A stretch of DNA of 64,000 bases, taken from assembly GCA_944323725.1 (NCBI GenBank), contig CALUTP010000019.1:1-64000 (forward strand). Direction: 5' to 3'. Made by a program: the position numbers and the translations under genes. Each line of letters starts with the position of its first letter. Within the stretch, counting starts at the first letter, position 1. Below are positions 1,719 through 32,751 of the stretch, piece after piece. Source of the stretch: Candidatus Gastranaerophilales bacterium. Lineage in GTDB: Bacteria; Cyanobacteriota; Vampirovibrionia; Gastranaerophilales; Gastranaerophilaceae. Under the pieces are notes generated by a model. That model was not told where the DNA came from and searched no databases. It worked only from the letters and a program-made list of their open reading frames with translations.

Positions 1719-3692
1719 CTACTGATTACCATTATAGATTCGCACATAATTCCAGTAACTTCTGAATACTTTTTTTACATAGTATTTGGTTTCTGGGTAT
1801 GGAATTTGTTCTATGAATTCATCTGTATCATTATAGTATATAGACTTTTTCCAACTATTTACAGATCCTATCCCGCCATTGTAGGCTGCTATTGAAGAAA
1901 CATCCATGCCGGAGAGCATGCTTTTCAAGTATGCATAATAATAATTTCCAAGCATAATATTGTCATTAGGATTAGACAAACTATATTTTTTAATTCCCTT
2001 TTTTACAGCTATTTCGGATGCTGTTGAAGGCATTAGCTGCATTAGACCCAGTGCACCCGACATGCTTTTTGCTGAAGGATTAAAATAACTTTCCTCTCTT
2101 GCTATTGAAAGCATTAGAGGAGGATTATTCCCAACTTTATCCGCATAATTTTTTATATCTTTATAGTAATGAAGAGGATATACAAGACGCCATCTTAAAT
2201 CATACTTATCAGGTTTTACTTTTATCTTTTCCATAGCATCTCTAGCTAGAACTATTGAATGACTATAATCACCTTTTTCATATAATACCCAGCTTTTTAT
2301 AAATCCATCATTACCTGCAAGCTCCTCTAGGATATCGAAATCTCTTAGTTCTAACAATTTATTAACTATTGATGGAGGATTCTTATATGGATATAAAACT
2401 GGTGTTTCTTTTATATAACTTGTAATTATTGGGCCATTAGCATGGTTCATGTGCAAGTATGCTCTATATGCATAATAATTGTCAGGATATTGGGCTATTA
2501 CACTCCTATAAAAACTCATATAATCTTTATAATCATGGGTTTTTTCTGCTAATCTTCCCATCCAGTACATGACCATAGGAGCATATTCAGATTTTTTGAA
2601 TTTATTAAGAAAATCATGCCCTATTTTTTTAGCATTATTTATATCATTATTCCATATTGTTGAAAGAAATATCTGCGACAAGGCATCATCAGCAAAATCA
2701 CTATCTGGAAATGTTAAATATAAATCTTTATAGCATCGAGATTTATATGCAGAAGGAGTATAAGAACACTTTAAATCCCAGATATAATCTTTTCCTTTCG
2801 AATGAGAAATATTATATAAATTTTTTGTCCCCTCATATTTATCTGGTACATGCTTTAAATAAACATCTATCGCTTTATATATATCTTCTTTATCAACATA
2901 TGAGGCATGATCTTTTAACCCCCATTCAGTTATATATTTAATCCTTGCGACATTCCCCATGCCTTCAGAATTTAATACCTCTAATGGCCAAGAATCTGAT
3001 AAATCAACATTTTTTAGCATTTTATCCGCATTGTGATAGTCATTAAAAAGATAATATGATTTTGCCATCAATAAATAATCATCTTTTGAAATTGTTTTAT
3101 CTAAAGTCAACCAGTTGCTTATAACATTCAATGCCAGCCTGCCAGATGGAGCTTTTTTTAAATAATGACGAAAATAATTTTCTACATTATCTTTCTCAGA
3201 CATCGGAAAAATCGCATTCGGAGTCTCGGTATAGCTTTTCATCAAAATCAGCCCAGAATAATACTCCGATGCTATTGCGTAATCTGTGTTAGGATAATGA
3301 GTAATTATTTCATCAAAATACTTTTTCGCTCGTTTCGGATTTTTTTCTAATAAATCTTGAGCTGTTAAATATTTGGCTTTTATGCTAAGAGCATGCTTTG
3401 GATATAACTTAAATAATAAATTATACTGCTTTATTGCAGAATCTGTATCTTCAAGTTTATCTGCACATTCACCTTGATGATAAATTGCTATTGGTTTTAA
3501 TGTAGATAAAAAACTGATTTTTGAAAACAAATAATAAGCATTAGAATAATTTGCTTTCTTCATATCAGAAAGTGCTTCTTTATAAATATCTTTAGTTCTT
3601 GCCGGAGTTTGACAGACAAGAGCACTTATACATACTCCTGCTATTATTAATCCCACCAAGGCTATTGCTACAAAAATCTTCTTCTTATCCAT
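1719..3692 (-). CDS. slt: Soluble lytic murein transglycosylase (Slt-type), membrane-anchored
   Basis: A 657-residue protein with an N-terminal hydrophobic anchor or signal (about residues 7-27). It has a long helical, TPR-like superhelical region and a C-terminal SLT domain from about residue 520. The domain shows REESYFNP (catalytic Glu about 534), GALGLMQLMP and SIAAYNGG, the three hallmark motifs of GH23 lytic transglycosylases, which cleave the MurNAc-GlcNAc bond of peptidoglycan to 1,6-anhydro products. The size matches Slt70. It stands alone on the minus strand. No Shine-Dalgarno precedes the ATG; instead TAGAAT ends exactly 6 bases before it, predicting a leaderless transcript. Confidence 0.9.
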   Translation of the reverse strand: MDKKKIFVAIALVGLIIAGVCISALVCQTPARTKDIYKEALSDMKKANYSNAYYLFSKISFLSTLKPIAIYHQGECADKLEDTDSAIKQYNLLFKLYPKHALSIKAKYLTAQDLLEKNPKRAKKYFDEIITHYPNTDYAIASEYYSGLILMKSYTETPNAIFPMSEKDNVENYFRHYLKKAPSGRLALNVISNWLTLDKTISKDDYLLMAKSYYLFNDYHNADKMLKNVDLSDSWPLEVLNSEGMGNVARIKYITEWGLKDHASYVDKEDIYKAIDVYLKHVPDKYEGTKNLYNISHSKGKDYIWDLKCSYTPSAYKSRCYKDLYLTFPDSDFADDALSQIFLSTIWNNDINNAKKIGHDFLNKFKKSEYAPMVMYWMGRLAEKTHDYKDYMSFYRSVIAQYPDNYYAYRAYLHMNHANGPIITSYIKETPVLYPYKNPPSIVNKLLELRDFDILEELAGNDGFIKSWVLYEKGDYSHSIVLARDAMEKIKVKPDKYDLRWRLVYPLHYYKDIKNYADKVGNNPPLMLSIAREESYFNPSAKSMSGALGLMQLMPSTASEIAVKKGIKKYSLSNPNDNIMLGNYYYAYLKSMLSGMDVSSIAAYNGGIGSVNSWKKSIYYNDTDEFIEQIPYPETKYYVKKVFRSYWNYVRIYNGNQ

Positions 3693-4540: not shown

Positions 4541-5929
4541 ATGTACGGTATTATTTTAGCCGGTGGTTCAGGAAGCCGACTTTGGCCTTTATCTAGAGAG
4601 TTATATCCAAAACAATTATTAAACTTAAATTCAGACAAAAGTCTTTTGCAGACAACTTTTGAAAGGTTAAAATTTTGCATGCCGTCAGAAAATATTATAA
4701 GCATTACTAATACTAAACATACATCTAATGTTAGAATGCAGCTTAGCGCCCAAGTAGAAAATGCAATTGTTTTAGCAGAACCAGTTTCGAAAAATACAGC
4801 CCCCGCAATTGCTCTTGCGGTAAAATTTATTATGCAAAAATCAAATTCAGATCCAGTAATTTTAGTTGTTCCTTCTGATCATTTAATTGAAGATGTTGAA
4901 AAATTCTCTTCCACTGTCAAAAAAGGTGCCATGCTTGCTGAAGAAGGATATATAGTTACTTTTGGTATTGAACCTACATATCCTGAAACAGGTTATGGAT
5001 ATATTAATACTCTTGAAAAGATTGAAAACGGCTATAAAGTAAAAGAATTTGTTGAAAAACCTGATTTAGAAACAGCACGAAAATATATATCTGCAGGTAC
5101 CTATTTTTGGAACAGCGGGATTTTTATGTTTAAAGCTTCTAGTATGATTGAAGAAATAGAAAAATATGCACCGGATATTGCAAAAATTTCTAGCAATATC
5201 GACTTTAATAAAACGCATGACATTCCATTTATAGAATTTGATAAAATGCCAAATATTTCTATTGATTACGCAATTATGGAAAAATCCGATAAAATTGCAC
5301 TTGTCAAACTTGAAAGTGATTGGAATGATTTAGGTTCTTGGCAATCTATTTATGATGTTAGTCCAAAAGATAAAGATAATAACGTACTTATTGGACATGT
5401 TCTTGATAAGGGTTCTAAAGGGTCATTTGTGTATTCTTCATCAAAGCTCGTTGCAACGATCGGACTTGAAGATACCGTAATTGTAGAAACCGAAGATGCA
5501 ATTTTAGCTTGCAAAAAAAATAGAACTCAAGAAGTTAAACATATTTATGAAACTTTAAAAAAACAAAATGATGATACCCATTTGATTCATAAAACTGTTT
5601 ATAGGCCTTGGGGATTTTATACCGTTATAGCTCAAGGCGATGGATTTCAAACAAAAATAATTCATGTAAACTCAGGACAAAAACTTTCTGTTCAATCACA
5701 CAATCATAGAAGTGAGCACTGGGTTATACTAAATGGCATGGCAAAAGTGATACTTGAAGGGAAAGAACATATTTTATCTCCAGGTCATAGCATTGATATT
5801 CCACTAAAAGCCATTCATTCATTGCAAAATCCATACAAGGATGATTTGGAAATTATTGAAGTCCAAAAAGGAGACCTGCTTCTAGAAGAAGATATCATCC
5901 GCTATGAAGATATTTATGGAAGAGTATAA
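4541..5929 (+). CDS. manC: Mannose-1-phosphate guanylyltransferase / mannose-6-phosphate isomerase
   Basis: A 462-residue bifunctional type II enzyme. The N-terminal nucleotidyltransferase domain has GGSGSRLWPLSR and YPKQLL (GTP + Man-1-P to GDP-mannose) and EKP/NSGIF motifs in the middle. The C-terminal cupin domain has QSHNHRSEHWVILNG, the metal-binding isomerase motif, from about residue 385. The length is normal for ManC/AlgA. GDP-mannose feeds surface polysaccharide or glycoprotein synthesis. The start has a good AGAGGAG site. It is convergent with the DUF3137-like gene, only 6 bp apart. Confidence 0.93.
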   Translation: MYGIILAGGSGSRLWPLSRELYPKQLLNLNSDKSLLQTTFERLKFCMPSENIISITNTKHTSNVRMQLSAQVENAIVLAEPVSKNTAPAIALAVKFIMQKSNSDPVILVVPSDHLIEDVEKFSSTVKKGAMLAEEGYIVTFGIEPTYPETGYGYINTLEKIENGYKVKEFVEKPDLETARKYISAGTYFWNSGIFMFKASSMIEEIEKYAPDIAKISSNIDFNKTHDIPFIEFDKMPNISIDYAIMEKSDKIALVKLESDWNDLGSWQSIYDVSPKDKDNNVLIGHVLDKGSKGSFVYSSSKLVATIGLEDTVIVETEDAILACKKNRTQEVKHIYETLKKQNDDTHLIHKTVYRPWGFYTVIAQGDGFQTKIIHVNSGQKLSVQSHNHRSEHWVILNGMAKVILEGKEHILSPGHSIDIPLKAIHSLQNPYKDDLEIIEVQKGDLLLEEDIIRYEDIYGRV

Positions 5930-5935
5930 GTGTTT

Positions 5936-7072
5936 TTATAATCCTATTTTTTGATTTAATTTCAAGACTTTAATTAATTCTAAAACTGAAAGTATTTCAT
6001 TAAATAATTCCACAAAAGTTTCAGCAGTAGTTTCTTTATTTCTTTCTGCCATAGCAAAAAGATCTTTACCAGCATCTATTGCAATAGTGATTTTTTTATC
6101 TTTAAACGCAGCTCTTATATATTTAGCATTAAAAGCTGTTTTCATATTTTTAAACCGCTCCATAAATGCAGTTGTTAGAACAACTCTTGCTTCTATTTGA
6201 TTATTTGAATATATTTTATACTTCTTAGAAAATTCAATATCTTCTAATTTTACTTCTTCAAACTTTTCATGATTAAATTTTAAACCTCTGCTTGAGACAG
6301 CGTTTTCAAATAAAAATGTATGTCCCTCAAAGTTTTTATTCATATCAAATTCAATAAAAACGCCTCTGAATGGAACATAAGTTATAATTTTATAAACAAT
6401 AAAAAGTAATAAAAAAAGAATTAACACAGGAATCGTCCACAATACTTGGATACAATTTGAAATTACAGATACCATTACAAATATAGCTATAACAAACAAT
6501 AAACTTGCACAACCGCATCCCAAAATGAAAGGCGCCAGCACCAAATAAGAAATTAAATTTTGAAAAGATAATGAAGAATCAAATTCCAAAATTCGAAAAT
6601 TCACATCTTTATACACTCCAGTAATAGAATCATCTATATTCCCAATCAAATAATTATTAATAATATTTAATTGACTTATACTTTTAAAGTATTGAAAATC
6701 TCTACCATTACCACCTTTCGACCATTTAAAATCTCCGAAAATCTTTAAAAAATCATTCATCAAATACTGTTTAGTTTTATTTTCACCAGAAATATCAATA
6801 CAAACAGAAGCGGATTTTACATTTCTATTATGGAAAATTATTAAACCTGTAAATAAAAATGCAAAAACAAAACAACAAATCGCAGGAATTTCAATATTGA
6901 AAAATCCAAAAACCATAATTCCAAAAATAGATAACATTAATAGAAAAAGCAATATTGAATTTACATTTTCATATATTCTTGTATGATTAATTTTATCCAA
7001 ATTATTTTTAACTTTTTTAAAATAAAAATCTTGAAGCTCTTTTTTCATTTGAGCAATACTTTTTTCTTCCAT
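5936..7072 (-). CDS. DUF3137-like membrane protein
   Basis: 378 residues with a charged N-terminal cytoplasmic segment, two adjacent membrane helices (about residues 38-85), then a second hydrophobic pair (about 170-235). The C-terminal soluble part has the layout of DUF3137 proteins: a GVYKDVNFRILEFD strand, a KYKIYSNNQIEARVVLT segment, and TAFMERF. The function of this family is not known. It follows the HExxH gene by 11 bp and is probably cotranscribed with it. Confidence 0.65.
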   Translation of the reverse strand: MEEKSIAQMKKELQDFYFKKVKNNLDKINHTRIYENVNSILLFLLMLSIFGIMVFGFFNIEIPAICCFVFAFLFTGLIIFHNRNVKSASVCIDISGENKTKQYLMNDFLKIFGDFKWSKGGNGRDFQYFKSISQLNIINNYLIGNIDDSITGVYKDVNFRILEFDSSLSFQNLISYLVLAPFILGCGCASLLFVIAIFVMVSVISNCIQVLWTIPVLILFLLLFIVYKIITYVPFRGVFIEFDMNKNFEGHTFLFENAVSSRGLKFNHEKFEEVKLEDIEFSKKYKIYSNNQIEARVVLTTAFMERFKNMKTAFNAKYIRAAFKDKKITIAIDAGKDLFAMAERNKETTAETFVELFNEILSVLELIKVLKLNQKIGL

Positions 7073-14755: not shown

Positions 14756-17700
14756 ATGGCACAAACTATAGAGGAAATAGCTAAAATTCTAAGTCTTTTA
14801 CAGGAAGAGAATAAGATTAATGCAGTAGATGTTAACAGAATTCTAAAAGATATAGATTCTAAAGTAGATTATCTTAATAATAACAGTGATGAAAATACAT
14901 TACTCATAGATAGCATTAGAGAAGCTTTTGAATCAAAAAATAACTCTGATATTGAAAAGTTTTCTGAATTTACCAATACTCTTGACCAAATAAAAATTTC
15001 ACTTTCCTCAAGCGTATCATCTAATGATTTTGATAGATTTTTAGATACTGTTAATTCATTAGAAGCTAATTTTAAACAAGCTGTCAGTGGACTTAACTAT
15101 GATAAACAAAGCTTTTTCGACAGCATAAAGGACGAAATTGGCAGAATAATCGAAAAATCCATCATTCTTAAAGATTTATTTCCTCAAAAAAATGAAGAAG
15201 AATTAAATGAAATAGCTGAAAGCATTAATGAAAATATTGATAGTATAAAACAAGATATCAATAATAATGTTAATACCGATTTTAATATAATACAAGAAAA
15301 TATTGTTTCTATAATAAATAGAATTGAGAAATTAAAAGAGGAAATCTCTGAAAATACTTCAACTAATATTAACTATATTTCTAATGAAATGAACAGTTCT
15401 GTACAAAAAGCTTCTGTAGAACTTGCTGAATTAAAAAATATTCTTAGTAAAAACTTTGATGATAATTCCCAAATTTTAAGCGCATTAAATGATGCAAACT
15501 ACAAAATTTCATTCATCATAGAACAATCACAAAAAGATTTTAATGAAAATATTATTTCAATAAAAAAATCCTTTGATAGCTTAGACTTTCTATTTGAAAA
15601 TTTAAGAAACGAAATCAAACAAAATTCAGAAGAGAATCTTAATAGAATCATTGAAAGTATAAAGGAGAATTCTATTCAATTAAAGGATTTTAAAGAAAAC
15701 GTCTCTGAACATTTAACTAAATATTTAACTTCAATAAAAGACCTATTTATAGCATTTTCTGAAGATATGAAAAATAATCAAAATGTTTTGGCTTCTGATA
15801 TTTTCGATAAAAAACTGCAAGAACTTGAAATTATATCAAAAGATATCAATAATTTTAACTCAAATATTGAAGTTAAAGAAGAAAATTATAAAACATATAT
15901 TTCTCAAAAAATAAATGAACTTCAACTTTTCATCAACACTATACAAGAAAATATTAAAAATAATGAAAATGAAAAATTTGATGAACTTTATAAATCACTA
16001 GAAGAACATAATGATATAATAAGTAATTTTTCATCAAATACCGATGTGAAATTTGGTGAATCAATTTCTGAATTGACTGAAATCAAAGATTATATTGCAA
16101 ATACTGCAATAAAACTTGATGATGTGCAAAATAATATTACTAGCATTGTAAATACTGAATTTAAAAAAAATGAAGTATTCAATGATACTATTTACAATCA
16201 ATTTAATAATATAAATACCAAATTATACTCATTAAGTGACGAATTAAAACAAGAATTCACAAATTCTAACAATTCTGCAGAAGAATCTAAAGAGGAAATT
16301 AATTCCAATATTAATAGTAATTTTAATAATATGAAAACAATGCTTGAATGTCTACGAGCTAATGTTTCACAAACTGCGGATAATATTAATGTAAAAATTG
16401 ATGAATACAATAATACAAATACAAACATACATAATGAAAATCAGGAAATATTCATAAAACTCAATAATGCTGCTGAAGAAATAATTTCCGAACTTAAGCA
16501 AAATAGGACTGCGGATAATGAAAAATATGTTATTCTTGCTGAAACATTCCGGTCAAATATAGCAAAATTTGAAGATTTATTTTCTGAAAATAATAATAAA
16601 TATTCTCAAGAGGTTGCAGAAAAATTTAATACAATTTATGAACATATTTGTGAAATTAAAGAATATTTTAAAGAAGATAATCAAGAATTTACTATTGATA
16701 TTACAAATAAATTTAATACAAATCTTCTAGATGCAAAAAATGAAATTAATACAACAATTAAACAGGATTTTAATTCTGTTGCACAAAGTATAGGCGCACT
16801 TTTAGGGAAACTTGAATCTGTAAAAAACGATTTAACATCTAATAATGCAACAGGACACAATAACCTTGAACAGTCAATCATTGCAAATTTAAGAACAACT
16901 GAATCTATTCTTACTACAAATTCTGAAAAATATTCTAAGGAAGTGGCAGAACAAATAACAAATATAAATGAAAGTATTAAAAACGTTAAATTAGATTTGG
17001 AAAATTGGTTAAATGAAAATAATACAACTTCAACAACAAAATTAATAGGCATAGAAGAAAAATTAAATGATATATCTGATAACTATAAACAAAATTTAGA
17101 AACTCTTCAAACTAAGCTTGGAGAATACATAATTTCGGTAGACAAAATCTCGGAAGATACAAATTCGAAATTAGATAGTTCCGTCAATGAATTTATAGAT
17201 ATTAGACATGAATTAACTAAAATTTTAGAAGAATTAGAAACTATTAAAGATAATAATTCAGAAGAATTAAATACTACAATCATAGAAATAATAAATAAAT
17301 TAGATATAATTACAGATAGTATTAATCAATCAAAAGATAATATAAAAAATGATGTCAAAGAAGTATTACAAGAAAACGTAGACTTTATAGATCAAAGACT
17401 TAATTCACTTTCATTAAGTCTTAATGAATTAAAATTAAAACAATCAGAAAATTTTGATTTCCAAACTAATAATATTGCAGAAAAAATTAATAGTATAAAA
17501 CAAGAAATAGAACTTATAAATACAGATATCACAACTGCAATAAGCATAAAATCAGAAGAATTACTAAAAGAATTTGAGCCATTACAGCGAGCTTTAGATA
17601 AATTCCTTGAATTTGATTTTAATGAAATTGTGAAAGAAATTAAAAATCAAATTGAACTTTCATATTTAGATCTTTTGTCAGAATTAAAAGACAATTTGAT

Positions 17701-20116
17701 AGAAAATCACGATAACTATATAAGAATAGAAAATACATATAAAGAAATTGTAACAAAGTGTAGTTCATTTGAAGATTACATAAACAATTTTACAAAAGAT
17801 AATTTGGAACTTATAAATTCTAATATAACTAATATTGATTTAACTGTTCGAGCTAATCTTGAACAGACAAATTACCTAGTAGAAGAATGGCATAAGAACA
17901 TAGATTCTTTAAATGAAAAACTTTCAAAAAATCAGGAATTTTACAAAAATTCTCTAAGCGCACTACTTGAAAATATTCAAAACAATCTAGATGATAAATT
18001 GAAAGCTGGAGCAACCGAACTAAAAGAATATCTAAACATTATATTAGAAAATCAAGATACAAAATCTGCCATAGCAAATCTAGGAGGTAATATAAGTGAA
18101 AAAATTGAAAAATATTACTCCAATATAAATAATACAAACGAAAACATCCAAAATACTTTAACAGAGATTGCTGAAAAAATAAATCTTTCCTCTAATAAAG
18201 ATGCTGAAGATTTAGCATATGCTATTAAAAACCAAGCTCAAATTGTTACAGATTCATTAAAAACTCTTCATCAAAAGATTGATATTATCGCAATGGATGA
18301 TAATTTTGAAATTTATGATGAGATTTTGGATGGAATTAAAAACCTAAATAACAAAGTTGATATTATTGCTATAGACAATAACACTGAAGAGATTCAAGAA
18401 CTTAGTGACGAAATTAGAAGCGTTAATTCTATAATAAAAAATTTACATGAAAAAGTTGATATTATTGCTACAGCAGATAATTCTGAAGGAATCAATGAAG
18501 TCCAAGAAAATATATCCACAATTAACTCTGCAATAAAAAACCTGCATGAAAAAATTGACATTATTGCTATGGCAGACAATTCTGAAGGAATTAATGAAGT
18601 CCAAGAAAATATATCTACAATTAGCTCTGCAATAAAAAATTTATATGAAAAAGTTGATATTATTGCTGCAGCAGATAATTCTGAAAAAATCAATGAACTT
18701 CATCAAGACATATCCGCAATAAATTCAACTATTAAATCACTGCATGAAAAAATTGATATTCTTGCTATGGAGGATAACTCCGAATTACAAAATGAGTTGG
18801 ATGAAATTTATGAATTCCTTAAATCACAAAAAAGATTTATTGAAGAAATTAACGAAAAAATCCAACTAAATATAATTAAAGAAAAATTTGATGAAGTTGT
18901 TTCTAATATAGAAAAAAATAATACAGAAACCAATAAAATTGCAGAAACACTAAAGATATTACACGAAAAAGTTGATAGCCTTGCTCTGGCAGATAATTCT
19001 GAAATTAAAACTGAAATAAAAAATATAAAAGACCTCATTTATGAACAAAGAAAATTATTTGATACTAATGAGGAGAGTGAAAAAACAAAAGAAATTGAAA
19101 ATTATTTAGACCAATTAATTTTAGAAATAAATAAAATTGAAAAAGGTATTTCAGAAATTGATTTTAATAAAAACGCACAAGATATAAAAGATTCTGTCAT
19201 GACGGCAATTTTATCAGTTACAGATCAAATATCATTTGTCGAAGAAACAGAAGAAATAAAAGATTTTGTAGAAGAAAAAACAGATGCAATTAATAAGACA
19301 CTTTTAGATGTAAAAAAACAGTTAAATAATATAACAAATACAAGTGATGATATGGATTTTTATTCATATACACTTCAAGATGTCGAGTCAGATATAGCTA
19401 AACTTCGATTAATATTAAACGATATGTCAAACTCAAATTCAACAACTGAATTTGGAGTTATCTCTGCTAATATTAATCGCATAGTAAAATCAATTGAAGA
19501 ACTTAGAGCTTCCATAAATCATAAGGAAAACTTTGAAGTAACTCCCGACTTTGAAAAGCTTAATGAAGATATCTTAAGTATAAGTGCTAGGACAAATAAG
19601 TTACTACTTAACTCTGATGAGTCTAGCAGAATAATCTGCAACAGTCTTGATGAATTTAATCGTAGAACAAGCAATCTTGAAAATCGAATTAATGTACTAG
19701 ATAATACTAATATTGAAAAACATTTATCTATAATTGATGAAAAAGTTGAAGAAACTATGAATTCAAACAATGTACTCAGAAATGTTATGATGTACCTTGG
19801 CGAATGGATGGATGGTACTTCAGAGACAATATCTAGTATATATGAAAAAACATCAAGAATTTCTTCAATGCAAGATGTCCTTGATGAATTAAAAGAAATA
19901 ATACCTGAAAAAGAAATCTTAATTAAGACAATTGAAACCAAATTTGAAGAACAACAAAATAGAATAGACAGACTTGAAAAAAAATTAGACAAGGCAATTT
20001 CTATTATTGAAGAACAGGATGAAAATGTAATACATAATAAAATAGACAAACTTGAAAATCAATTGTCTAAATTAAGCTCAAATATAGAAAAGCTGGCGTC
20101 ATATGTTGATGAATAA
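14756..20116 (+). CDS. Giant coiled-coil protein (1786 residues), unknown
   Basis: One uninterrupted reading frame, extremely rich in Asn, Glu, Lys, Ile and Ser, with heptad-like spacing of hydrophobic residues throughout. There is no signal peptide, no membrane helix and no recognisable catalytic domain. Residues about 1168-1343 form tandem 33-residue repeats built on LHEKIDIIAMADNSEGINE. The C-terminal 80 residues are again coiled coil (QQNRIDRLEKKLDKA). The stop overlaps the start of the GlcD-like gene, so the two are probably cotranscribed. The ribosome site AAAGGAAAG is about 11 bases upstream. A cytoplasmic filament or scaffold is the simplest guess, but no function can be assigned. Confidence 0.85.
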   Translation: MAQTIEEIAKILSLLQEENKINAVDVNRILKDIDSKVDYLNNNSDENTLLIDSIREAFESKNNSDIEKFSEFTNTLDQIKISLSSSVSSNDFDRFLDTVNSLEANFKQAVSGLNYDKQSFFDSIKDEIGRIIEKSIILKDLFPQKNEEELNEIAESINENIDSIKQDINNNVNTDFNIIQENIVSIINRIEKLKEEISENTSTNINYISNEMNSSVQKASVELAELKNILSKNFDDNSQILSALNDANYKISFIIEQSQKDFNENIISIKKSFDSLDFLFENLRNEIKQNSEENLNRIIESIKENSIQLKDFKENVSEHLTKYLTSIKDLFIAFSEDMKNNQNVLASDIFDKKLQELEIISKDINNFNSNIEVKEENYKTYISQKINELQLFINTIQENIKNNENEKFDELYKSLEEHNDIISNFSSNTDVKFGESISELTEIKDYIANTAIKLDDVQNNITSIVNTEFKKNEVFNDTIYNQFNNINTKLYSLSDELKQEFTNSNNSAEESKEEINSNINSNFNNMKTMLECLRANVSQTADNINVKIDEYNNTNTNIHNENQEIFIKLNNAAEEIISELKQNRTADNEKYVILAETFRSNIAKFEDLFSENNNKYSQEVAEKFNTIYEHICEIKEYFKEDNQEFTIDITNKFNTNLLDAKNEINTTIKQDFNSVAQSIGALLGKLESVKNDLTSNNATGHNNLEQSIIANLRTTESILTTNSEKYSKEVAEQITNINESIKNVKLDLENWLNENNTTSTTKLIGIEEKLNDISDNYKQNLETLQTKLGEYIISVDKISEDTNSKLDSSVNEFIDIRHELTKILEELETIKDNNSEELNTTIIEIINKLDIITDSINQSKDNIKNDVKEVLQENVDFIDQRLNSLSLSLNELKLKQSENFDFQTNNIAEKINSIKQEIELINTDITTAISIKSEELLKEFEPLQRALDKFLEFDFNEIVKEIKNQIELSYLDLLSELKDNLIENHDNYIRIENTYKEIVTKCSSFEDYINNFTKDNLELINSNITNIDLTVRANLEQTNYLVEEWHKNIDSLNEKLSKNQEFYKNSLSALLENIQNNLDDKLKAGATELKEYLNIILENQDTKSAIANLGGNISEKIEKYYSNINNTNENIQNTLTEIAEKINLSSNKDAEDLAYAIKNQAQIVTDSLKTLHQKIDIIAMDDNFEIYDEILDGIKNLNNKVDIIAIDNNTEEIQELSDEIRSVNSIIKNLHEKVDIIATADNSEGINEVQENISTINSAIKNLHEKIDIIAMADNSEGINEVQENISTISSAIKNLYEKVDIIAAADNSEKINELHQDISAINSTIKSLHEKIDILAMEDNSELQNELDEIYEFLKSQKRFIEEINEKIQLNIIKEKFDEVVSNIEKNNTETNKIAETLKILHEKVDSLALADNSEIKTEIKNIKDLIYEQRKLFDTNEESEKTKEIENYLDQLILEINKIEKGISEIDFNKNAQDIKDSVMTAILSVTDQISFVEETEEIKDFVEEKTDAINKTLLDVKKQLNNITNTSDDMDFYSYTLQDVESDIAKLRLILNDMSNSNSTTEFGVISANINRIVKSIEELRASINHKENFEVTPDFEKLNEDILSISARTNKLLLNSDESSRIICNSLDEFNRRTSNLENRINVLDNTNIEKHLSIIDEKVEETMNSNNVLRNVMMYLGEWMDGTSETISSIYEKTSRISSMQDVLDELKEIIPEKEILIKTIETKFEEQQNRIDRLEKKLDKAISIIEEQDENVIHNKIDKLENQLSKLSSNIEKLASYVDE
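18259..18785 (+). repeat. Tandem 99-bp (33-residue) coding repeats
   Basis: Five or so consecutive units of LHEKxDIIAxADNSEGINEx-type sequence. Units starting at 18482 and 18581 are nearly identical and exactly 99 bp apart; outer copies are more diverged, and a degenerate copy recurs near 18960. Confidence 0.85.
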
Positions 20117-23651: not shown

Positions 23652-25262
23652 ATGGGTTTATCAGCATCACAAGCTAGATTATTAACCATTACAGCCAGAA
23701 AATCTGACTGTGAATACGAATCAATGCGTCTTTCACACCAGAAACTGGCATTATCTCGTGACATGAATAATGTTTCAGAGGAATATCAAAATGCGATAAA
23801 CCAGACAAAATTGGTATATGACTTCTATGGTAATGGCTCCCAGGAACAGCAACTGAGTTATAATTTACTCATGTCTCCATCTGCCCTAAATGATTATATA
23901 CCATCTCCAATCACAGATACTTCAGGAAGAATAGTACTAAATGGAGGTCTAGCACGTGCTGCAAAAGCTGCAGGAATCCCTCAAGAAGGTTTAGATGGAC
24001 TTCCATCTTCAGATCAAAGAAACTTATTTATACAAGGTATGGCTGAAAACGGAGTAATAAGTCAAAAACTTGCAGACCAATTAGTCTTAACAAAATATAA
24101 CCAAATGGCAGGTGTAGGTTCTGCAGATCTTGTTAATGTCAATACCGCAGAATGCTCATATTCTCAATTCGTAAATATGCTGAGCGGAGTAACATTTGAT
24201 TTCTCTGATCTTGTTGCTAATGCTGGAGGTTCAGATTTACAGCTTGCAATAGATGGAACAAGAATTGATGATAGCGATGGCAGAGTAACGGGAAATCTTA
24301 CTCTTGCTGATATATTTAATGGTAATGTTAGTATTAGAGGTTCAGCTTGGGATAACGAGGATTTAAGAGGTAAAGATGGCTTATATGACTGGTCTGTAGT
24401 TGATAAAGTTGCAACATGCAGTTTCTGGCCTGAAATGATGAATGCTATTGATTCACTACTAGATACTGGAGATCCATATACGCAAGCTGCTCTTGAATAT
24501 GCAAAAAGTAAAGTAAATGAATCAATAGAATGTTTATCAACCCCAGAAAGTTCAGATTGGTCAAATGCAGCTTTCCACAATACTCATAAAAAGAAAAGCT
24601 CAGGAAAAATTAACGGATGGATTGATGAAAAAACAGATAAATACATAGGTTTTGTATCAGAACAAAACTCTGGTGATGATTATAATGACGGATATGGTTT
24701 AAATTTAACCAATATGTGTAAAGCTTATTTGACATACTTTGCACAATATATGGAAGGTATTTCTAATTCTCATTATGAAGTTACTAAAGAACTTGGAACA
24801 AGCAGTTTAGTTGATGATAACCTATTCACATTTACGTATGTAACTGGAATAGATACTTCAGGAGACAATTTACTTATAGCTGGTTTCTATGATGCTTTAT
24901 TCAACCAAATCTGCACAAAGGGCTGGACAGAAAATGAAAAAGTCGATGATCCTGAGTACTTACAAGAAATGCTTCAAAATGGTGCAATGTATGTATCCAC
25001 AATGACTGATGACGGATTCTACTATCAAGGAAACTATGCTACAAATACATATATTAAAGAAGTTACAGATGAAGAAGGTATTGCTCAAGCAGAAGCAAAA
25101 TACAACAGAGAAAAAGAAAAATTAACATATAAAGAAAATGTACTAGATATGAAAATGAAAAATCTAGATACGGAAATATCAGCACTGACAACAGAATACG
25201 ATACAGTTAAATCGGTCATTCAAAAAAACATTGAAAAATCGTTTAAACGATATAATGCATAA
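23652..25262 (+). CDS. SQAR/LDTE-family protein 1 (conserved ends, variable middle)
   Basis: 536 residues. The N-terminus MGLSASQARLLTITARKSD and the C-terminal block NLDTEISALTTEYD...IQKNIEKSFKRY match the family members at 31327 and 52462, while the middle (about residues 65-480) is unrelated. Both ends are predicted amphipathic helices, an arrangement reminiscent of flagellin or rod-type D0 domains, though no motif proves homology. There is no Sec signal. The ribosome site GAAAGGATT is shared with the 52462 gene. The gene is flanked by a TGTAA palindrome and a terminator. Function unknown. Confidence 0.8.
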   Translation: MGLSASQARLLTITARKSDCEYESMRLSHQKLALSRDMNNVSEEYQNAINQTKLVYDFYGNGSQEQQLSYNLLMSPSALNDYIPSPITDTSGRIVLNGGLARAAKAAGIPQEGLDGLPSSDQRNLFIQGMAENGVISQKLADQLVLTKYNQMAGVGSADLVNVNTAECSYSQFVNMLSGVTFDFSDLVANAGGSDLQLAIDGTRIDDSDGRVTGNLTLADIFNGNVSIRGSAWDNEDLRGKDGLYDWSVVDKVATCSFWPEMMNAIDSLLDTGDPYTQAALEYAKSKVNESIECLSTPESSDWSNAAFHNTHKKKSSGKINGWIDEKTDKYIGFVSEQNSGDDYNDGYGLNLTNMCKAYLTYFAQYMEGISNSHYEVTKELGTSSLVDDNLFTFTYVTGIDTSGDNLLIAGFYDALFNQICTKGWTENEKVDDPEYLQEMLQNGAMYVSTMTDDGFYYQGNYATNTYIKEVTDEEGIAQAEAKYNREKEKLTYKENVLDMKMKNLDTEISALTTEYDTVKSVIQKNIEKSFKRYNA

Positions 25263-26201: not shown

Positions 26202-26230
26202 TTGACATCACCTTGTAGTTATTCTAAGAT
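26202..26230 (+). promoter_or_regulatory. Sigma-70 promoter of the riboswitch-led operon
   Basis: TTGACA (26202-26207), 17 bp, TAAGAT (26225-26230). Transcription would start near 26237, just before the structured leader. Confidence 0.75.
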
Positions 26231-26235
26231 TTTAA

Positions 26236-26379
26236 AAGAGGAAATTGATGTGAAAATCATCAGCTGTGCCGCAACCGTTATAGCCGGAACACTCAGAAAA
26301 ACTTACTTGCTGCGAGCATCGGCAATAAGATATATTTTCTAAGTTGTCCTCTGAATTTTTAGAATAGCAGAGGATTTTT
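26236..26379 (+). promoter_or_regulatory. Cobalamin-riboswitch-like leader with terminator / RBS sequestor
   Basis: The leader starts at the promoter. It holds GAGGAAATTGATGTGAAAATC (P3-like stem TGATG/CATCA), then the core-like string GTGCCGCAACCGT and AGCCGGAACAC, resembling the conserved elements of cobalamin riboswitches. A 10-bp hairpin follows (CTTAC-TTGCTG...CGGCAA-TAAG). Last is TCCTCTG (26347-26353) paired with CAGAGGA (26368-26374) and TTTTT, which is a terminator and also buries the AGAGGA ribosome site. The usual P4-P6 extension is very short or absent, so the assignment is tentative. Confidence 0.6.
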
Positions 26380-26380
26380 A

Positions 26381-27082
26381 ATGTCATTCGGAGCCGTACA
26401 AACTAATAATGCAAGAATAGGAACATGTCCACATGGACTTCCTATTGGAGCATGCCCGATTTGTAATGGTATGGGCGGAGGTGGAGGTATAAAAAAAGCC
26501 GATTTCTCTGCAAAACCTGGAGAAATGAGCTGGAATGAGTGTGCTGCTATAGGTGCATTTTTAAAAGCTCAACAAAATGCAAAACTGCAAAGACAACAAG
26601 ATATTCAAAACTTTGCACAACAAGCAATTGCTTTTCAAAATGCAATGACAAATGCATCTCAAAGACTTGCGTCATTAGCTCAGTTTTTTACAGCAAACAC
26701 CCCCGCAATTATAGCTAAACCAGTTAACTTTATTTTAAATACTATAGTTGGCGGAACTATAAATATAATTAAAAATATACCTTCTACTATCTCAAATGCA
26801 ATACACGCTTTAAATCAAAAGTTTACAGATATATCAGATAAGCTTACTGCTATTATTGGAGAACTCAAGACCGCAATCAATAAAAAAATATCAGAAACTT
26901 TTTCTGAACTAAAAAAGAAAGTGAAATCATTATTTTCGATATTCAATCCACTAAATACCGATGATGAAGAAAAGAAAATTGATGAAACTAAAAAAACTTT
27001 TCAATTGAAGACCTTTATTCATGATTTATACAATAAACTTACAAACGAAAACAAAAAGGATATAGAAAAAGATGAATGTTAA
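26381..27082 (+). CDS. Unknown protein with N-terminal CPHGLPIGACPICNG motif
   Basis: 233 residues. The N-terminus has TCPHGLPIGACPICNGMGGG, a CxH...CxxC cluster that could bind a metal, followed by a Gly run. The rest is Gln/Ala-rich helix and an amphipathic or weakly hydrophobic region (about residues 110-140), ending in a Lys-rich tail. It is the first gene behind the cobalamin-riboswitch-like leader, with its ribosome site inside the terminator stem. Its end overlaps the next start by 11 bp. The family is not recognised; metal binding is an inference. Confidence 0.75.
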   Translation: MSFGAVQTNNARIGTCPHGLPIGACPICNGMGGGGGIKKADFSAKPGEMSWNECAAIGAFLKAQQNAKLQRQQDIQNFAQQAIAFQNAMTNASQRLASLAQFFTANTPAIIAKPVNFILNTIVGGTINIIKNIPSTISNAIHALNQKFTDISDKLTAIIGELKTAINKKISETFSELKKKVKSLFSIFNPLNTDDEEKKIDETKKTFQLKTFIHDLYNKLTNENKKDIEKDEC

Positions 27083-28550
27083 TCAATTCCACGATGGAGA
27101 GACTTTACGTCAACAGCGTAATTTAACAACCCAGCAAAAAAAAGCCAATGCATACACCAAAGAAGGGGTTGTAGTTAACAGTTTTATAAAAGAAGGGCAA
27201 AATAGCAACATAAATTTAGATGAAACTTACGATACTCTTGTAATTTCTGAAAATGTAAAAATGCCTGCAAAATTAGATGAAAATATTAATTCTAAAGAAA
27301 AAAGCCTTATACCAATAAGTGCAATTGCAGTAGGAGTAATGACAGGAGTAACTTTGCTTACAGCTTTTATACGTAAAAATGCAAAAATAAACAGAGAAGC
27401 TGCAGTTAAAAAGCTTGAAACACTCCCATCAACTACCCGTAATGTCGCAATTAACGAAGAAACCCACCAAGCAATTTATAGAATGATTAAAAATCCAACT
27501 CCAAAGACTCTACTTGCTGGTAGCGGAGTACTTGTATTAAGCGCTATGGCATTTATGGGGAAAACATTCTTTGACGGATATAAAGACGTCTGGGTGAAGA
27601 AAAAAGAAGCAGATATCCAAAAAAATTTACAAGAAAAATTAATTGATGTCGAAACTCAATCATTTAGCGGGAAAATTCAAATAATAAGAAGTATGCTCTC
27701 TGAAAAAGCAAAAGAACTCGGTAAATATGTTTCTACTGAAATAAAGCCTCAAAAAGGTTCCAAAACTTTTGGTGGTATCTCTTTTGGAGAAACTAATACA
27801 AAAAGTAAAAGTAAAAATAGTAATATGAAATATTTTCTTCTAGGTGCTGGCACTATTGCATCTATTATCGGACTTGGATATTTGTCTATGAAAAACCTTA
27901 ATGCAGGGAAAAAACACATTGATAAATATCTCACAGATAAAAAAGCAACAATCAAAAAAATTATCACAACCTCAAAAGATGAAACAAAAGCAAATGATAA
28001 AATAACGTTAAAAGTACTTTTCCATGATGTGGATGCTTCAAAAGAATTTATAGAAAATTCACTAAAAGATTTAAATTGGAAACCTGAAGAAATTAATGAA
28101 TTTACCCAAGAAGTACTTAAAGCAACAGCAAAAGTAAATGAAGCTATGGGGGGAGATGGATCTGATAAAACGACTTTCTATTCACACGTTAATGATTATA
28201 GAGCTCATTTATTTAATTATCTTCTTAATACAGAAAATAAACAATTTAAACAATTATTCTTTGGCATAACAGGTCTTACTGCTTTTAGCTATGGAGGTAA
28301 ACTAGCTGGAGATGCTATAAAAGAAGTCCAAGTTAAGAAAATTAATGCTGAAACTGAATTAAATTTACAAAAACGCCTTGTATCTACTGAACTTAGAAAT
28401 TTTAAATCAAAAAAGGATTCAGCAATACAACCATTAATCGAAGAATTCTATCGTCAAGCCAATCAAGGAAAACCGAAAGAAGAATTAAAAGTTATGGCAG
28501 ATAATATATTGTTAGAAATTAAAAACGGACCACCGTTTGTGTATTCATAA
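27072..28550 (+). CDS. Multi-pass membrane protein, unknown
   Basis: 492 residues with four separated hydrophobic segments (about residues 78-97, 147-167, 253-273, 393-413) linked by Lys/Glu-rich helical regions. It has no signal peptide and no recognised domain. It starts inside the end of the previous gene (translational coupling) and is followed 16 bp later by the 155-residue protein, so the three are an operon under the same leader. The alternation of membrane segments and charged helices suggests a scaffold rather than an enzyme (inference). Confidence 0.75.
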   Translation: MNVNQFHDGETLRQQRNLTTQQKKANAYTKEGVVVNSFIKEGQNSNINLDETYDTLVISENVKMPAKLDENINSKEKSLIPISAIAVGVMTGVTLLTAFIRKNAKINREAAVKKLETLPSTTRNVAINEETHQAIYRMIKNPTPKTLLAGSGVLVLSAMAFMGKTFFDGYKDVWVKKKEADIQKNLQEKLIDVETQSFSGKIQIIRSMLSEKAKELGKYVSTEIKPQKGSKTFGGISFGETNTKSKSKNSNMKYFLLGAGTIASIIGLGYLSMKNLNAGKKHIDKYLTDKKATIKKIITTSKDETKANDKITLKVLFHDVDASKEFIENSLKDLNWKPEEINEFTQEVLKATAKVNEAMGGDGSDKTTFYSHVNDYRAHLFNYLLNTENKQFKQLFFGITGLTAFSYGGKLAGDAIKEVQVKKINAETELNLQKRLVSTELRNFKSKKDSAIQPLIEEFYRQANQGKPKEELKVMADNILLEIKNGPPFVYS

Positions 28551-28566: not shown

Positions 28567-29034
28567 TTGGGTATTCAACAAATTAACAGCTTTAACTATT
28601 CTTATATCAAGCCCTGTACTGTAATACAACCTACAGCACAGCAAAATTACTGTAAATTTAATCAGGCTAAAGTTGATTATTTTGTTAAACAAAAAGAATT
28701 AGGACTACCTTATTTAAAAGATGTTCTTAAAAATTCGAATAATGAAGATCAGATAACTGAATCACTTTATATACTTGATAGAATGCTTGATAACGGTACA
28801 AAAGGGATTGATAAAATGTATCCTGAACTTTCTCGTTTTAATAAAACAAAATCCGCAAATATACAGACTTTTCTTGCTGGAATATATAGAAAAATTCAAG
28901 TTCCAGATGCTTTTGGGCCGCTTTTAAGTATGCTGATTCAAAACTCTATTAATCCGCCACAATCCGTATTTGATCCAAACGAAGAAATAGGGGGCGCAAT
29001 TCTCTCTTATCTTTCTGAGAGATTTAGAACTTAA
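28567..29034 (+). CDS. Unknown 155-residue helical protein (TTG start)
   Basis: It begins at TTG with a perfect AAGGAGG 6 bases upstream, which decides the start. It contains repeated helical segments (YLKDVLKNSNNEDQITESLY, then FLAGIYRKIQVPDAFGPLL) of the kind seen in HEAT-like adaptors. It has no membrane or signal segment. It is third gene of the riboswitch-led unit. Not recognised. Confidence 0.7.
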   Translation: MGIQQINSFNYSYIKPCTVIQPTAQQNYCKFNQAKVDYFVKQKELGLPYLKDVLKNSNNEDQITESLYILDRMLDNGTKGIDKMYPELSRFNKTKSANIQTFLAGIYRKIQVPDAFGPLLSMLIQNSINPPQSVFDPNEEIGGAILSYLSERFRT

Positions 29035-29122: not shown

Positions 29123-30871
29123 ATGCAAATAGAAAGTTCAAGATTGTTACAATATACAATTAAAAAAGAGGTACAAACTACCTCTTCAGCTTGTTTATCA
29201 GCCTCTGTTGATGACATTGAGATTACTAGTACAATCAATGTATCTGATTATGAACTTGCTATTGATGCCGCGAATGCAGGTCTGGAAAATATTAACATTG
29301 TAAGTAAAATTAATTATATACCCACTGATACTGTCGAAATTAATGGAAAGACTTCTGATATAACTAATGTAAGCTCAGTACTTTCTAACGAAAGCATCAG
29401 TAATACTGTAGACTTAGTGATTAATCCGCCTGAAAATACTACAAAACCAACTACTATGAGTTTTTCTTCGACTTATAAAGATTTATCACAATCTACAATA
29501 AATAGAATCAAACAAATTATTTATGACTTACACCACAAAACAAGTGGGGGGACTGAAGGCGGAGATGGTACTGGAGGAACCGGAGGCACTGGAGGGACTG
29601 AAGGTGGTGATGGTACTGGAGGCACCGGAGGTACTGGAGGAACTGAAGGTGGAGATGGTTCTGATGGCCCAGAACTAGAGGAGCCAGATCCTAATAAGAA
29701 ATCATTTATTAATGAATTTAATGATACTACATCTATGTTTGAATATTTAAATTCACTAGATTCGAGTATTACAGCTGAATCTGGAATAACTAGAGCACAA
29801 CTTATTGCTTTAACACAAAACGATAGCTGGGAAGATAGTAACTATGATTTCTTTGGATCACTAAATAGAATTTTCGATGTTTTGGATGAAGACGATAATT
29901 CTACACTTTCCTTTGAAGAAATTAAAGAATTTATTGGTGATGAAATCGGTAATAGCATAGTTACATACAAAAATAAAGTAAATACTTATGCTGCTGAAAT
30001 CCAAAATAAATATGTCCATATGAGTGATCAAGAAAAATTAGAATTTGTACTTAAAAAAACCGAAGAGTACCTAAAAGCAGCAGGATTAACCATGCAGTTA
30101 AATGCACTGAATAAATTAAAAAGTCAAACTGACTTACATAATAGTATTAAAGTTGGAAATATTGCAATGGCTAACTTAAATAATGATCCAAATGCTGAAT
30201 TCTTTACATTAGGTTCATACACTTTTAAAGCAGGTCAATTTCAATATGAAGTAGACGGGTATCCTCAAGATGTAACTATTTGGGCTAATGATAAAGATAC
30301 AGCTGATGATGATCTAGGTATCACTTTGGATATCTCATTACTATCAAAAAATTGGTATGAACTGGTTGATGTAATGGTACATGAACTTACACACGCTACT
30401 GCATCACAATTTTATACTGCATCAAGCGACCCTAATGAAGCTGCATCTCTAAACTTAGATAATGTTAAAACTCTTTATGATATGGGCTTTATAGATTTAA
30501 CAGAATATAACTATTATAATGATAACTGGGTAAGTATTGTAACAAATGGTCAACAAGATGACATAAACCGATTATTTTACCTTGCTAGCTGTGCTTGGGG
30601 TGAATATATGGCATACCAAACAGATGCTGACTATGTAGACAGTATAGCAGGTGATGAATATGATGCTGGAAGACTAACTACAGCTGTAGATGGTTCTAAT
30701 GAAAAACAAACTATTATAGATCATATTGACGCAGCCTATAATACCGAAGGTTGGGAACAAAAATTTGATTCAGAAGGGAATCCAATGTACGATGAACATG
30801 GAGACCCAATACTTGAATATGTTATTCATAATGAAGCTGTACCTGATTGGAAATGGTGGACTTATGCTTAA
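29123..30871 (+). CDS. Unknown protein with Gly-rich linker, EF-hand and HExxH motif
   Basis: 582 residues. In order: a Ser/Thr/Val-rich N-terminal region without a Sec signal; a Gly/Thr/Asp-rich linker (about 142-185) with two and a half 15-residue TEGGDGTGG-type repeats; one canonical EF-hand loop, DEDDNSTLSFEE (about residue 255), expected to bind calcium; and a zincin-like VMVHELTHATASQ (about residue 421). The C-terminal region is Trp/Asp-rich. It looks like a calcium-dependent extracellular metallopeptidase exported by a non-Sec route; export and activity are inferred. Confidence 0.75.
   Translation: MQIESSRLLQYTIKKEVQTTSSACLSASVDDIEITSTINVSDYELAIDAANAGLENINIVSKINYIPTDTVEINGKTSDITNVSSVLSNESISNTVDLVINPPENTTKPTTMSFSSTYKDLSQSTINRIKQIIYDLHHKTSGGTEGGDGTGGTGGTGGTEGGDGTGGTGGTGGTEGGDGSDGPELEEPDPNKKSFINEFNDTTSMFEYLNSLDSSITAESGITRAQLIALTQNDSWEDSNYDFFGSLNRIFDVLDEDDNSTLSFEEIKEFIGDEIGNSIVTYKNKVNTYAAEIQNKYVHMSDQEKLEFVLKKTEEYLKAAGLTMQLNALNKLKSQTDLHNSIKVGNIAMANLNNDPNAEFFTLGSYTFKAGQFQYEVDGYPQDVTIWANDKDTADDDLGITLDISLLSKNWYELVDVMVHELTHATASQFYTASSDPNEAASLNLDNVKTLYDMGFIDLTEYNYYNDNWVSIVTNGQQDDINRLFYLASCAWGEYMAYQTDADYVDSIAGDEYDAGRLTTAVDGSNEKQTIIDHIDAAYNTEGWEQKFDSEGNPMYDEHGDPILEYVIHNEAVPDWKWWTYA
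29548..29663 (+). repeat. 45-bp Gly-rich coding repeats
   Basis: About two and a half copies of a 45-bp unit encoding TEGGDGTGGTGGTGG. It forms a flexible linker and is a likely slippage site. Confidence 0.8.
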
Positions 30872-31326: not shown

Positions 31327-32751
31327 ATGGGAATGGCAGCTTCACAAGCTAGATTTTTAGGTCTTACTGCTCGCAAAAATAATGTCGAGTTTGAAGGCCA
31401 GCAAATCAATCAACAGCGTACTGCGCTGTCAAATGAATCTGCCAATTATTATAATGATTTATTGGGCATGTCAGTTCCTGTTCCGCCTTCAATTGATAAT
31501 TACACAAAAACTACATATACATTTGAAGATGGAGTTTTAATGAATCAAATTACTGCATTAATAGCTCAAAACGATGGCACATACACAATAAGTTACCTTT
31601 CTAAATGGCAGGATGATTTTACCCCAGTAGCAGCAGCATCAAGTGTCATTAACCAGACACCTGAGGGCTTTTTTGTCGGCGCCACTCAATTAAGAACACT
31701 TGGTGAAATGCCAACTGGTGAAACTATTCAAAATACAATCACTATTGATGGTAATTCTTATAATGTTCAAAATGATGAAGGTGGTTATTATATAGAAAGA
31801 CCTAAAATGGTTCTTGGTACAGAACTTTGCACTGCTGAAGAAATTGCAAACTTTGAATATTATCTTTTTGAAGATGGATATACTGAAGCACAACAAGTAT
31901 TCAAAGATACAGATGGATCATTCTATACCGGAGATGAAACAAATAAAACACCTCTTACTGGGAAAACAGAAGATGATTTAGTAATTTGTATATGGGATGG
32001 GTCTAAAGATGACCCTGATGCAGCAGTTACACTTGTTACAAAAAATGCTGATGGAGAATATGAAAAAGAAGCTTACGTAGAAGAGAATGTTAAAGAATAT
32101 TTAACTCAAACTCAATTAAACAGCATTACAAAATATCCAGAAATGGTTGGATTAACAACTGAGCAAATTCAAAAACTAATTGAAGAAGAACAGGCCTATT
32201 TAACATTATTGAATAACAAATACAATAATGGGGATCAAACTGGTGAATGGTATGTTAGATATGTAAAAGATTCTGAAACAGGAAATAGTGTACCATATTT
32301 CTATAAAAAGAATGATGTAGAAAATGCTGATTATATTGACGGAGCATCCAGAAGCAATATCAACTGTTACACAATAGGAAGTGATACAAAAATAGAAGAA
32401 TTTAAAGCTATTGATGGATGTCAACTAGAACAAGATACCTCTGGAAGATATATCTCATTAACTATACCTAATGATGGAAATCCAGTAACCTACGCTCTTA
32501 CAACTACAACATTGACTGATCAAGATGCTTATAATGATGCAATGAATCAGTATGAATATGAAAAATATACATATGATCAATCAATTCAAGATATAAACTC
32601 TAAAATTGAAATAGTACAGGCTCAAGATAAAAATCTTGAATTAAGATTAAAACAACTCGATACTGAACAGGATGCAATTTCTACAGAAATGGATTCCGTA
32701 TCCAAAGTAATTGAGAAAAACGTTGAATCATCTTTTAAAACATTCGGTTAA
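31327..32751 (+). CDS. SQAR/LDTE-family protein 2
   Basis: 474 residues. It starts MGMAASQARFLGLTARKNN and ends QLDTEQDAISTEMD...VIEKNVESSFKTFG, matching the other family members, with a distinct middle rich in Asp, Tyr and Thr (about residues 50-410). There is no Sec signal and no Cys-rich region. The ribosome site is AGAAAGGAAAA. It has its own upstream palindrome and terminator, so it looks monocistronic. The family is not named by me; see the findings. Confidence 0.8.
   Translation: MGMAASQARFLGLTARKNNVEFEGQQINQQRTALSNESANYYNDLLGMSVPVPPSIDNYTKTTYTFEDGVLMNQITALIAQNDGTYTISYLSKWQDDFTPVAAASSVINQTPEGFFVGATQLRTLGEMPTGETIQNTITIDGNSYNVQNDEGGYYIERPKMVLGTELCTAEEIANFEYYLFEDGYTEAQQVFKDTDGSFYTGDETNKTPLTGKTEDDLVICIWDGSKDDPDAAVTLVTKNADGEYEKEAYVEENVKEYLTQTQLNSITKYPEMVGLTTEQIQKLIEEEQAYLTLLNNKYNNGDQTGEWYVRYVKDSETGNSVPYFYKKNDVENADYIDGASRSNINCYTIGSDTKIEEFKAIDGCQLEQDTSGRYISLTIPNDGNPVTYALTTTTLTDQDAYNDAMNQYEYEKYTYDQSIQDINSKIEIVQAQDKNLELRLKQLDTEQDAISTEMDSVSKVIEKNVESSFKTFG

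Follow-up and report, generated by a model that had tools for sequence, protein, structure and literature searches.

Organisation of the locus

The window analysed here, meaning the whole 64-kb stretch of DNA, carries three consecutive genes on the plus strand, termed A, B and C, which are preceded by a promoter and a structured leader. Gene A (nt 26381–27082) specifies a protein of 233 aa with the motif CPHGxPxGxCPIC, in which residues C16, H18, C25 and C28, as well as C54 further along, are invariant. Gene B (nt 27072–28550) is predicted, from its sequence and structural model, to encode a membrane protein of 492 aa with long helices, and gene C (nt 28567–29034, TTG start) a HEAT/ARM-like helical protein of 155 aa. 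Among 20 other loci, gene B follows gene A in 19 and gene C is present in 16, and the genes beyond vary between genera.

None of the three proteins shows a convincing match in Pfam, NCBIfam (A and B only), PHROGs, PADLOC or PDB. The Pfam and NCBIfam searches (the latter again with A and B) detected neither the known B12 transporter components BtuB, BtuC and BtuD nor any enzyme-like domain. According to a preliminary description of this DNA, the controlled genes are not known B12 genes. Matches of gene A to PHROG tail, SesA, PADLOC and designed-bundle entries were dismissed as coiled-coil noise. The same description gave the product of gene B four membrane segments; simple hydropathy finds three clear hydrophobic segments and at most one further, weak one near residues 395–412. 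The structural model of this protein, which consists of long helices, is poor and of low confidence (pLDDT 62, pTM 0.36), and its Foldseek matches are not meaningful. For gene C the model shows a confident HEAT/ARM-like helical fold; the fold matches were not taken as kinship, as their Z values lie within the range that such folds can give without it.

Several neighbouring genes, all on the plus strand, deserve mention. After the operon (nt 29123–30871) is a gene for a protein of 582 aa with a weak EF-hand match and a HELTH (HExxH) motif, perhaps a metalloprotease, which among the loci compared adjoins the operon only in its own genus. The operon is flanked by two related proteins with an MGxxASQAR start (nt 23652–25262 and 31327–32751), and such proteins recur nearby in several relatives (cluster c3). 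Further upstream (nt 14756–20116), a protein of 1786 aa looks like almost pure coiled coil and has near-identical internal repeats (IKNLHEKIDIIAMADNS...).

Promoter and leader elements

The leader elements also lie on the plus strand. A sigma-70-type promoter (TTGACA-17-TAAGAT, nt 26202–26230) matches 10 of 12 consensus bases, and the RNA is predicted to start near nt 26236, directly 5' of the sequence GAGGAAA (nt 26238–26244). This is followed by a P3-like stem, TGATG/CATCA (nt 26246–26250/26258–26262), and the aptamer core sequences GTGCCGCAACCGT and AGCCGGAACAC are both present. The preliminary description had drawn attention to the promoter, to GAGGAAA, to the stem and to the two core-like sequences, and all of them could be located.

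The AdoCbl-II (class II cobalamin) aptamer, as matched by Rfam and supported by covariation, extends over nt 26221–26299, with a functional core at about nt 26237–26294. Given an RNA start near nt 26236, the P1 half of the Rfam model would not be transcribed and probably lies outside the RNA, which fits the poor P1 pairing that the covariance-model match displays in the window. The L5 bases GUGC of a kissing loop are found at nt 26266–26269, and the P13 hairpin at nt 26302–26329, with the covarying L13 bases GCAU at nt 26316–26319. This P13/L13 part falls inside the interval of the preliminary description and was not named there. Next comes a regulatory hairpin (nt 26347–26374) in which TCCTCTG (nt 26347–26353) pairs with CAGAGGA (nt 26368–26374), so that the Shine-Dalgarno sequence AGAGGA (nt 26369–26374) is buried; as had been described, a T-run (nt 26375–26379) follows, reading TTTTTA up to the ATG of gene A at nt 26381.

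Assignment to a known riboswitch class

When the window was searched against all of Rfam, the sole riboswitch found was AdoCbl-II (RF01689), the full model of which matched nt 26221–26299 of the plus strand with 50.8 bits (curated cut-off 36.5 bits; E 2.1e-9, computed over the whole 64-kb window). The match was reproduced on an 801-base subsequence, and in the whole 1.91-Mb genome this leader gave the only RF01689 hit above the cut-off. RF01689 was one of the families proposed beforehand for a covariance-model search, and its match is significant, while the classical cobalamin family, RF00174, remained below threshold (15.6 bits against a cut-off of 31.5). The latter family, to which the leader of btuB in E. 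coli belongs, is in the same Rfam clan and shares the logic of a kissing loop combined with a ribosome site (PMC10653944); it differs in a long accessory domain that is absent from the present leader. The sensor had been remarked upon as much shorter than classical examples. Short it is, but shortness is a property of the AdoCbl-II class and not an oddity of this member.

Covariation was assessed in 26 relatives. The 11 aptamer pairs are standard in 96% of cases and show 42 double-sided changes, as against 10.1 in shuffles (none of 500 shuffles was as high). The aptamer helices have a covariation score of 0.428, compared with 0.128 when shuffled, and sliding of the pairing partners abolishes the signal. 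Judged from its sequence, the leader is a genuine, compact riboswitch of a known class, an ordinary member and not a new aptamer. It has in common with RF01689 the full-length match above the cut-off, the core, the L5–L13 kissing loop and the hairpin over the ribosome site, and departs from it in the poor P1, which is probably not transcribed, and in controlling genes that are not known as B12 genes.

Kissing loop and expression platform

In known corrinoid riboswitches, L5 and L13 form a kissing loop, by which P13 is stabilised and formation of a hairpin covering the ribosome site is favoured (PMC10653944). All three parts occur in the window, namely L5 (GUGC), P13 with L13 (GCAU), and the hairpin containing the ribosome site. 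Pairing of L5 with L13 over three bases was seen in 103 of 152 leaders, against a mean of 40 and a maximum of 56 when the L5 sequences were permuted, in a test anchored on CG[ACT]; this anchor was chosen post hoc, after an unanchored test (exact complement anywhere downstream) had failed, with 36 against 32.7 expected. Compensating L5/L13 types include CUGC/GCAG, CAGC/GCUG, GUGG/CCAC, GGUC/GACU and GGUU/AACU. As the sequences are related and not independent, this covariation is read as strong support for the predicted kissing loop and not as a p-value.

With the aptamer and P13 imposed, folding leaves the ribosome site 94% paired. The site is still mostly paired when they are not imposed, and simple folding shows no open ligand-free state. 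Because the site is mostly paired either way, the sign of regulation (OFF with ligand), which we infer together with the exact ON structure, rests on the literature and on the regulon, not on folding. Two candidates for an ON structure were considered. A helix between the post-aptamer segment and the segment preceding UCCUCU is favoured over permuted pairs (mean -9.4 vs -6.6 kcal/mol), but in the predicted folds it lengthens P13 and is not clearly an anti-sequestor. Pairing of AGAGGA in the aptamer with UCCUCU would be possible, yet the OFF state is the more stable by 1.6 to 2.5 kcal/mol.

In the proposed mechanism, the class II cobalamin riboswitch would repress translation of A-B-C at high cobamide supply. 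On binding of the ligand the aptamer would close, L5 (GUGC) would kiss L13 (GCAU) and stabilise P13, and the anti-Shine-Dalgarno sequence UCCUCUG would then pair with CAGAGGA and hide the ribosome site; the U-run may additionally permit termination. In the ligand-free state, the ribosome site would be open often enough for A, B and C to be synthesised.

Distribution across the order

The genome of the window is one of the order Gastranaerophilales, gut bacteria related to cyanobacteria; close relatives among named records are Candidatus Gastranaerophilales, including Candidatus Scatousia. RF01689 matched in 262 of 286 genomes of the order (E 1e-3), and gene A is present in 259 of the 286, almost always as a single copy. 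Riboswitch and gene A are jointly missing from at least 14 genomes, against an expectation of about two (kinship ignored). The aptamer lies directly 5' of gene A in all 80 further loci taken from the named genome collection (77 recognised by pattern and three by inspection, two of the latter having a long insertion within the aptamer), and the association extends to families f3, f5, f6 and f7 of the order. Leaders 5' of gene A in two close relatives (L233, L234) carry ~50–60 bases inserted within the aptamer between CCGT and GCCGGA and are otherwise retained. When 386 genomes from across the phylum were searched, every gene A match, among the matches listed, fell within Gastranaerophilales. 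Nothing on riboswitches of this order turned up in the papers searched.

Regulon and ligand

Elsewhere in the order, RF01689 riboswitches precede genes for NrdD (anaerobic ribonucleotide reductase, of two kinds) and MetE (B12-independent methionine synthase), which are the commonest other targets of the class, and also a TonB receptor (BtuB), after which come a BtuC-like permease and an ATPase (BtuD). The permease and ATPase were read from sequence, and the permease was confirmed as FecCD in three genomes (G007, G009, G013). At a further locus (L137, G137:C1, nt 300–1676) the same class stands 5' of a B12-binding radical SAM protein (TIGR04190-like). Repression by B12 typically acts on import and on B12-independent isozymes, and since the same riboswitch class lies 5' of such targets in this order, A-B-C is placed in the B12 regulon, of which it is the most widely kept member here. 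The BtuB-BtuC-BtuD import operons of relatives likewise stand under the RF01689 class, with predicted regulation by B12; they differ in that A, B and C have no detected sequence or fold relation to them, and neither a BtuB-type receptor nor BtuC was found in the genome of the window. NrdD and MetE share the riboswitch class within the order, whereas the family searches described above assigned none of A, B and C to an enzyme family.

The preliminary description had left the choice between an unrecognised system governed by B12 supply and a variant aptamer for another ligand. The RF01689 match, the kissing-loop platform and the classical B12 genes under the same class in relatives argue for the former, and control of A-B-C by B12 is well supported and, as a prediction from sequence, highly probable. 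Were the leader a riboswitch-like RNA for a different ligand, B12 would not be the signal of the operon, and it may be said for this that B12 sensing is here predicted from sequence, that pairing within the P1 half of the model is poor in the window, and that the aptamer of one genome (G060) combines a long insertion with a weak score. Such a ligand seems very improbable, however, given a score well above the curated cut-off, the conserved core, the covarying kissing loop, and the position of the same RNA class 5' of btuB-C-D, metE and nrdD within the order.

B12 genes and possible function of the operon

B12 exchange shapes gut communities, and riboswitches reveal the set of genes that a cell handles as B12 genes. 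The genome of the window encodes a B12-dependent ribonucleotide reductase, NrdJ, whose gene lies 5.7 kb outside the window; a search covering the TonB plug, the FecCD permease and the corrin-ring gene product CbiC found none of them in this genome (rated 99% complete). Among 33 genomes, NrdJ was found in 13 of the 17 that carry gene A and in 3 of the 16 that do not (p 0.0016, kinship ignored). The three exceptions with NrdJ and no gene A are G009, which has a TonB receptor and BtuC, G004, which has CbiC, and G101, which has none of the tested routes. Conversely, gene A occurs without NrdJ in G042, G083, G088 and G113, and btuB-C-D and A-B-C are found together in G007, G013, G033, G172 and G146.

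The best reading is that A-B-C may be a repressible operon for cobamide acquisition, a function we infer with about equal chances of being right or wrong. It would represent a B12-starvation module specific to Gastranaerophilales, which would capture or take up cobamides made by other gut microbes and so serve NrdJ where BtuB, BtuC and corrin synthesis were not found. Acquisition is favoured because the genome of the window has NrdJ but neither TonB plug, FecCD nor CbiC was found in it, and because NrdJ co-occurs with gene A, two of the three exceptions owning an alternative B12 route. Against it stand the coexistence of btuB-C-D with A-B-C in some genomes, the four gene A genomes without NrdJ, the exception G101, and the apparent lack of resemblance of A, B and C to any transporter. 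The fuller proposal, an undescribed cobamide acquisition system of three orphan families on which most of the order depends, keeping NrdJ without BtuB, BtuC or corrin synthesis, is plausible and falls somewhat short of an even chance.

Most of the remaining probability belongs to a B12-sparing or surface role. The operon could be a sparing or starvation-response module that, in the manner of NrdD and MetE, dispenses with a process requiring B12, or one that remodels the envelope; the prominence of nrdD and metE among the other targets of the class, the presence of A-B-C alongside btuB-C-D in several genomes and the absence of a transporter-like fold all point that way. This is a substantial minority possibility, weakened by the finding that most genomes without gene A have no NrdJ either, whereas sparing would be most useful where B12 is absent, and by the absence of an enzyme-like domain from all three proteins. 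The co-occurrence with NrdJ would also suit an intracellular handling of B12 that cobamide scarcity would induce (storing it, chaperoning it, or passing it on to NrdJ or another enzyme), and the conserved Cys/His motif of A could bind metal or cobamide. This seems rather unlikely, as four of the tested gene A genomes are without NrdJ, the hydrophobic segments of B suggest a membrane location, and repression by the ligand suits import better than storage. What the locus offers in each case is a testable prediction, that three orphan families kept by almost the whole order serve in obtaining B12 or in doing without it; the interest lies in this undescribed, order-wide operon under predicted B12 control, the RNA alone being ordinary.

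Other occurrences of the class

Three further loci of the order were recorded. A riboswitch of the same class precedes a reading frame of 94 aa at L175 (G198:C7, nt 319–600), a further orphan candidate for B12 control. At L134 (G022:C221, nt 4720–6342, minus strand) the riboswitch is followed by a protein in which ~30 residues resemble the N-terminus of MetE and the remainder resembles the radical SAM protein TIGR03960, as though a deletion had left only the start of metE. On G004:C76, the class is matched twice in a back-to-back arrangement, at nt 1882–1977 (minus strand) and nt 2318–2413 (plus strand).
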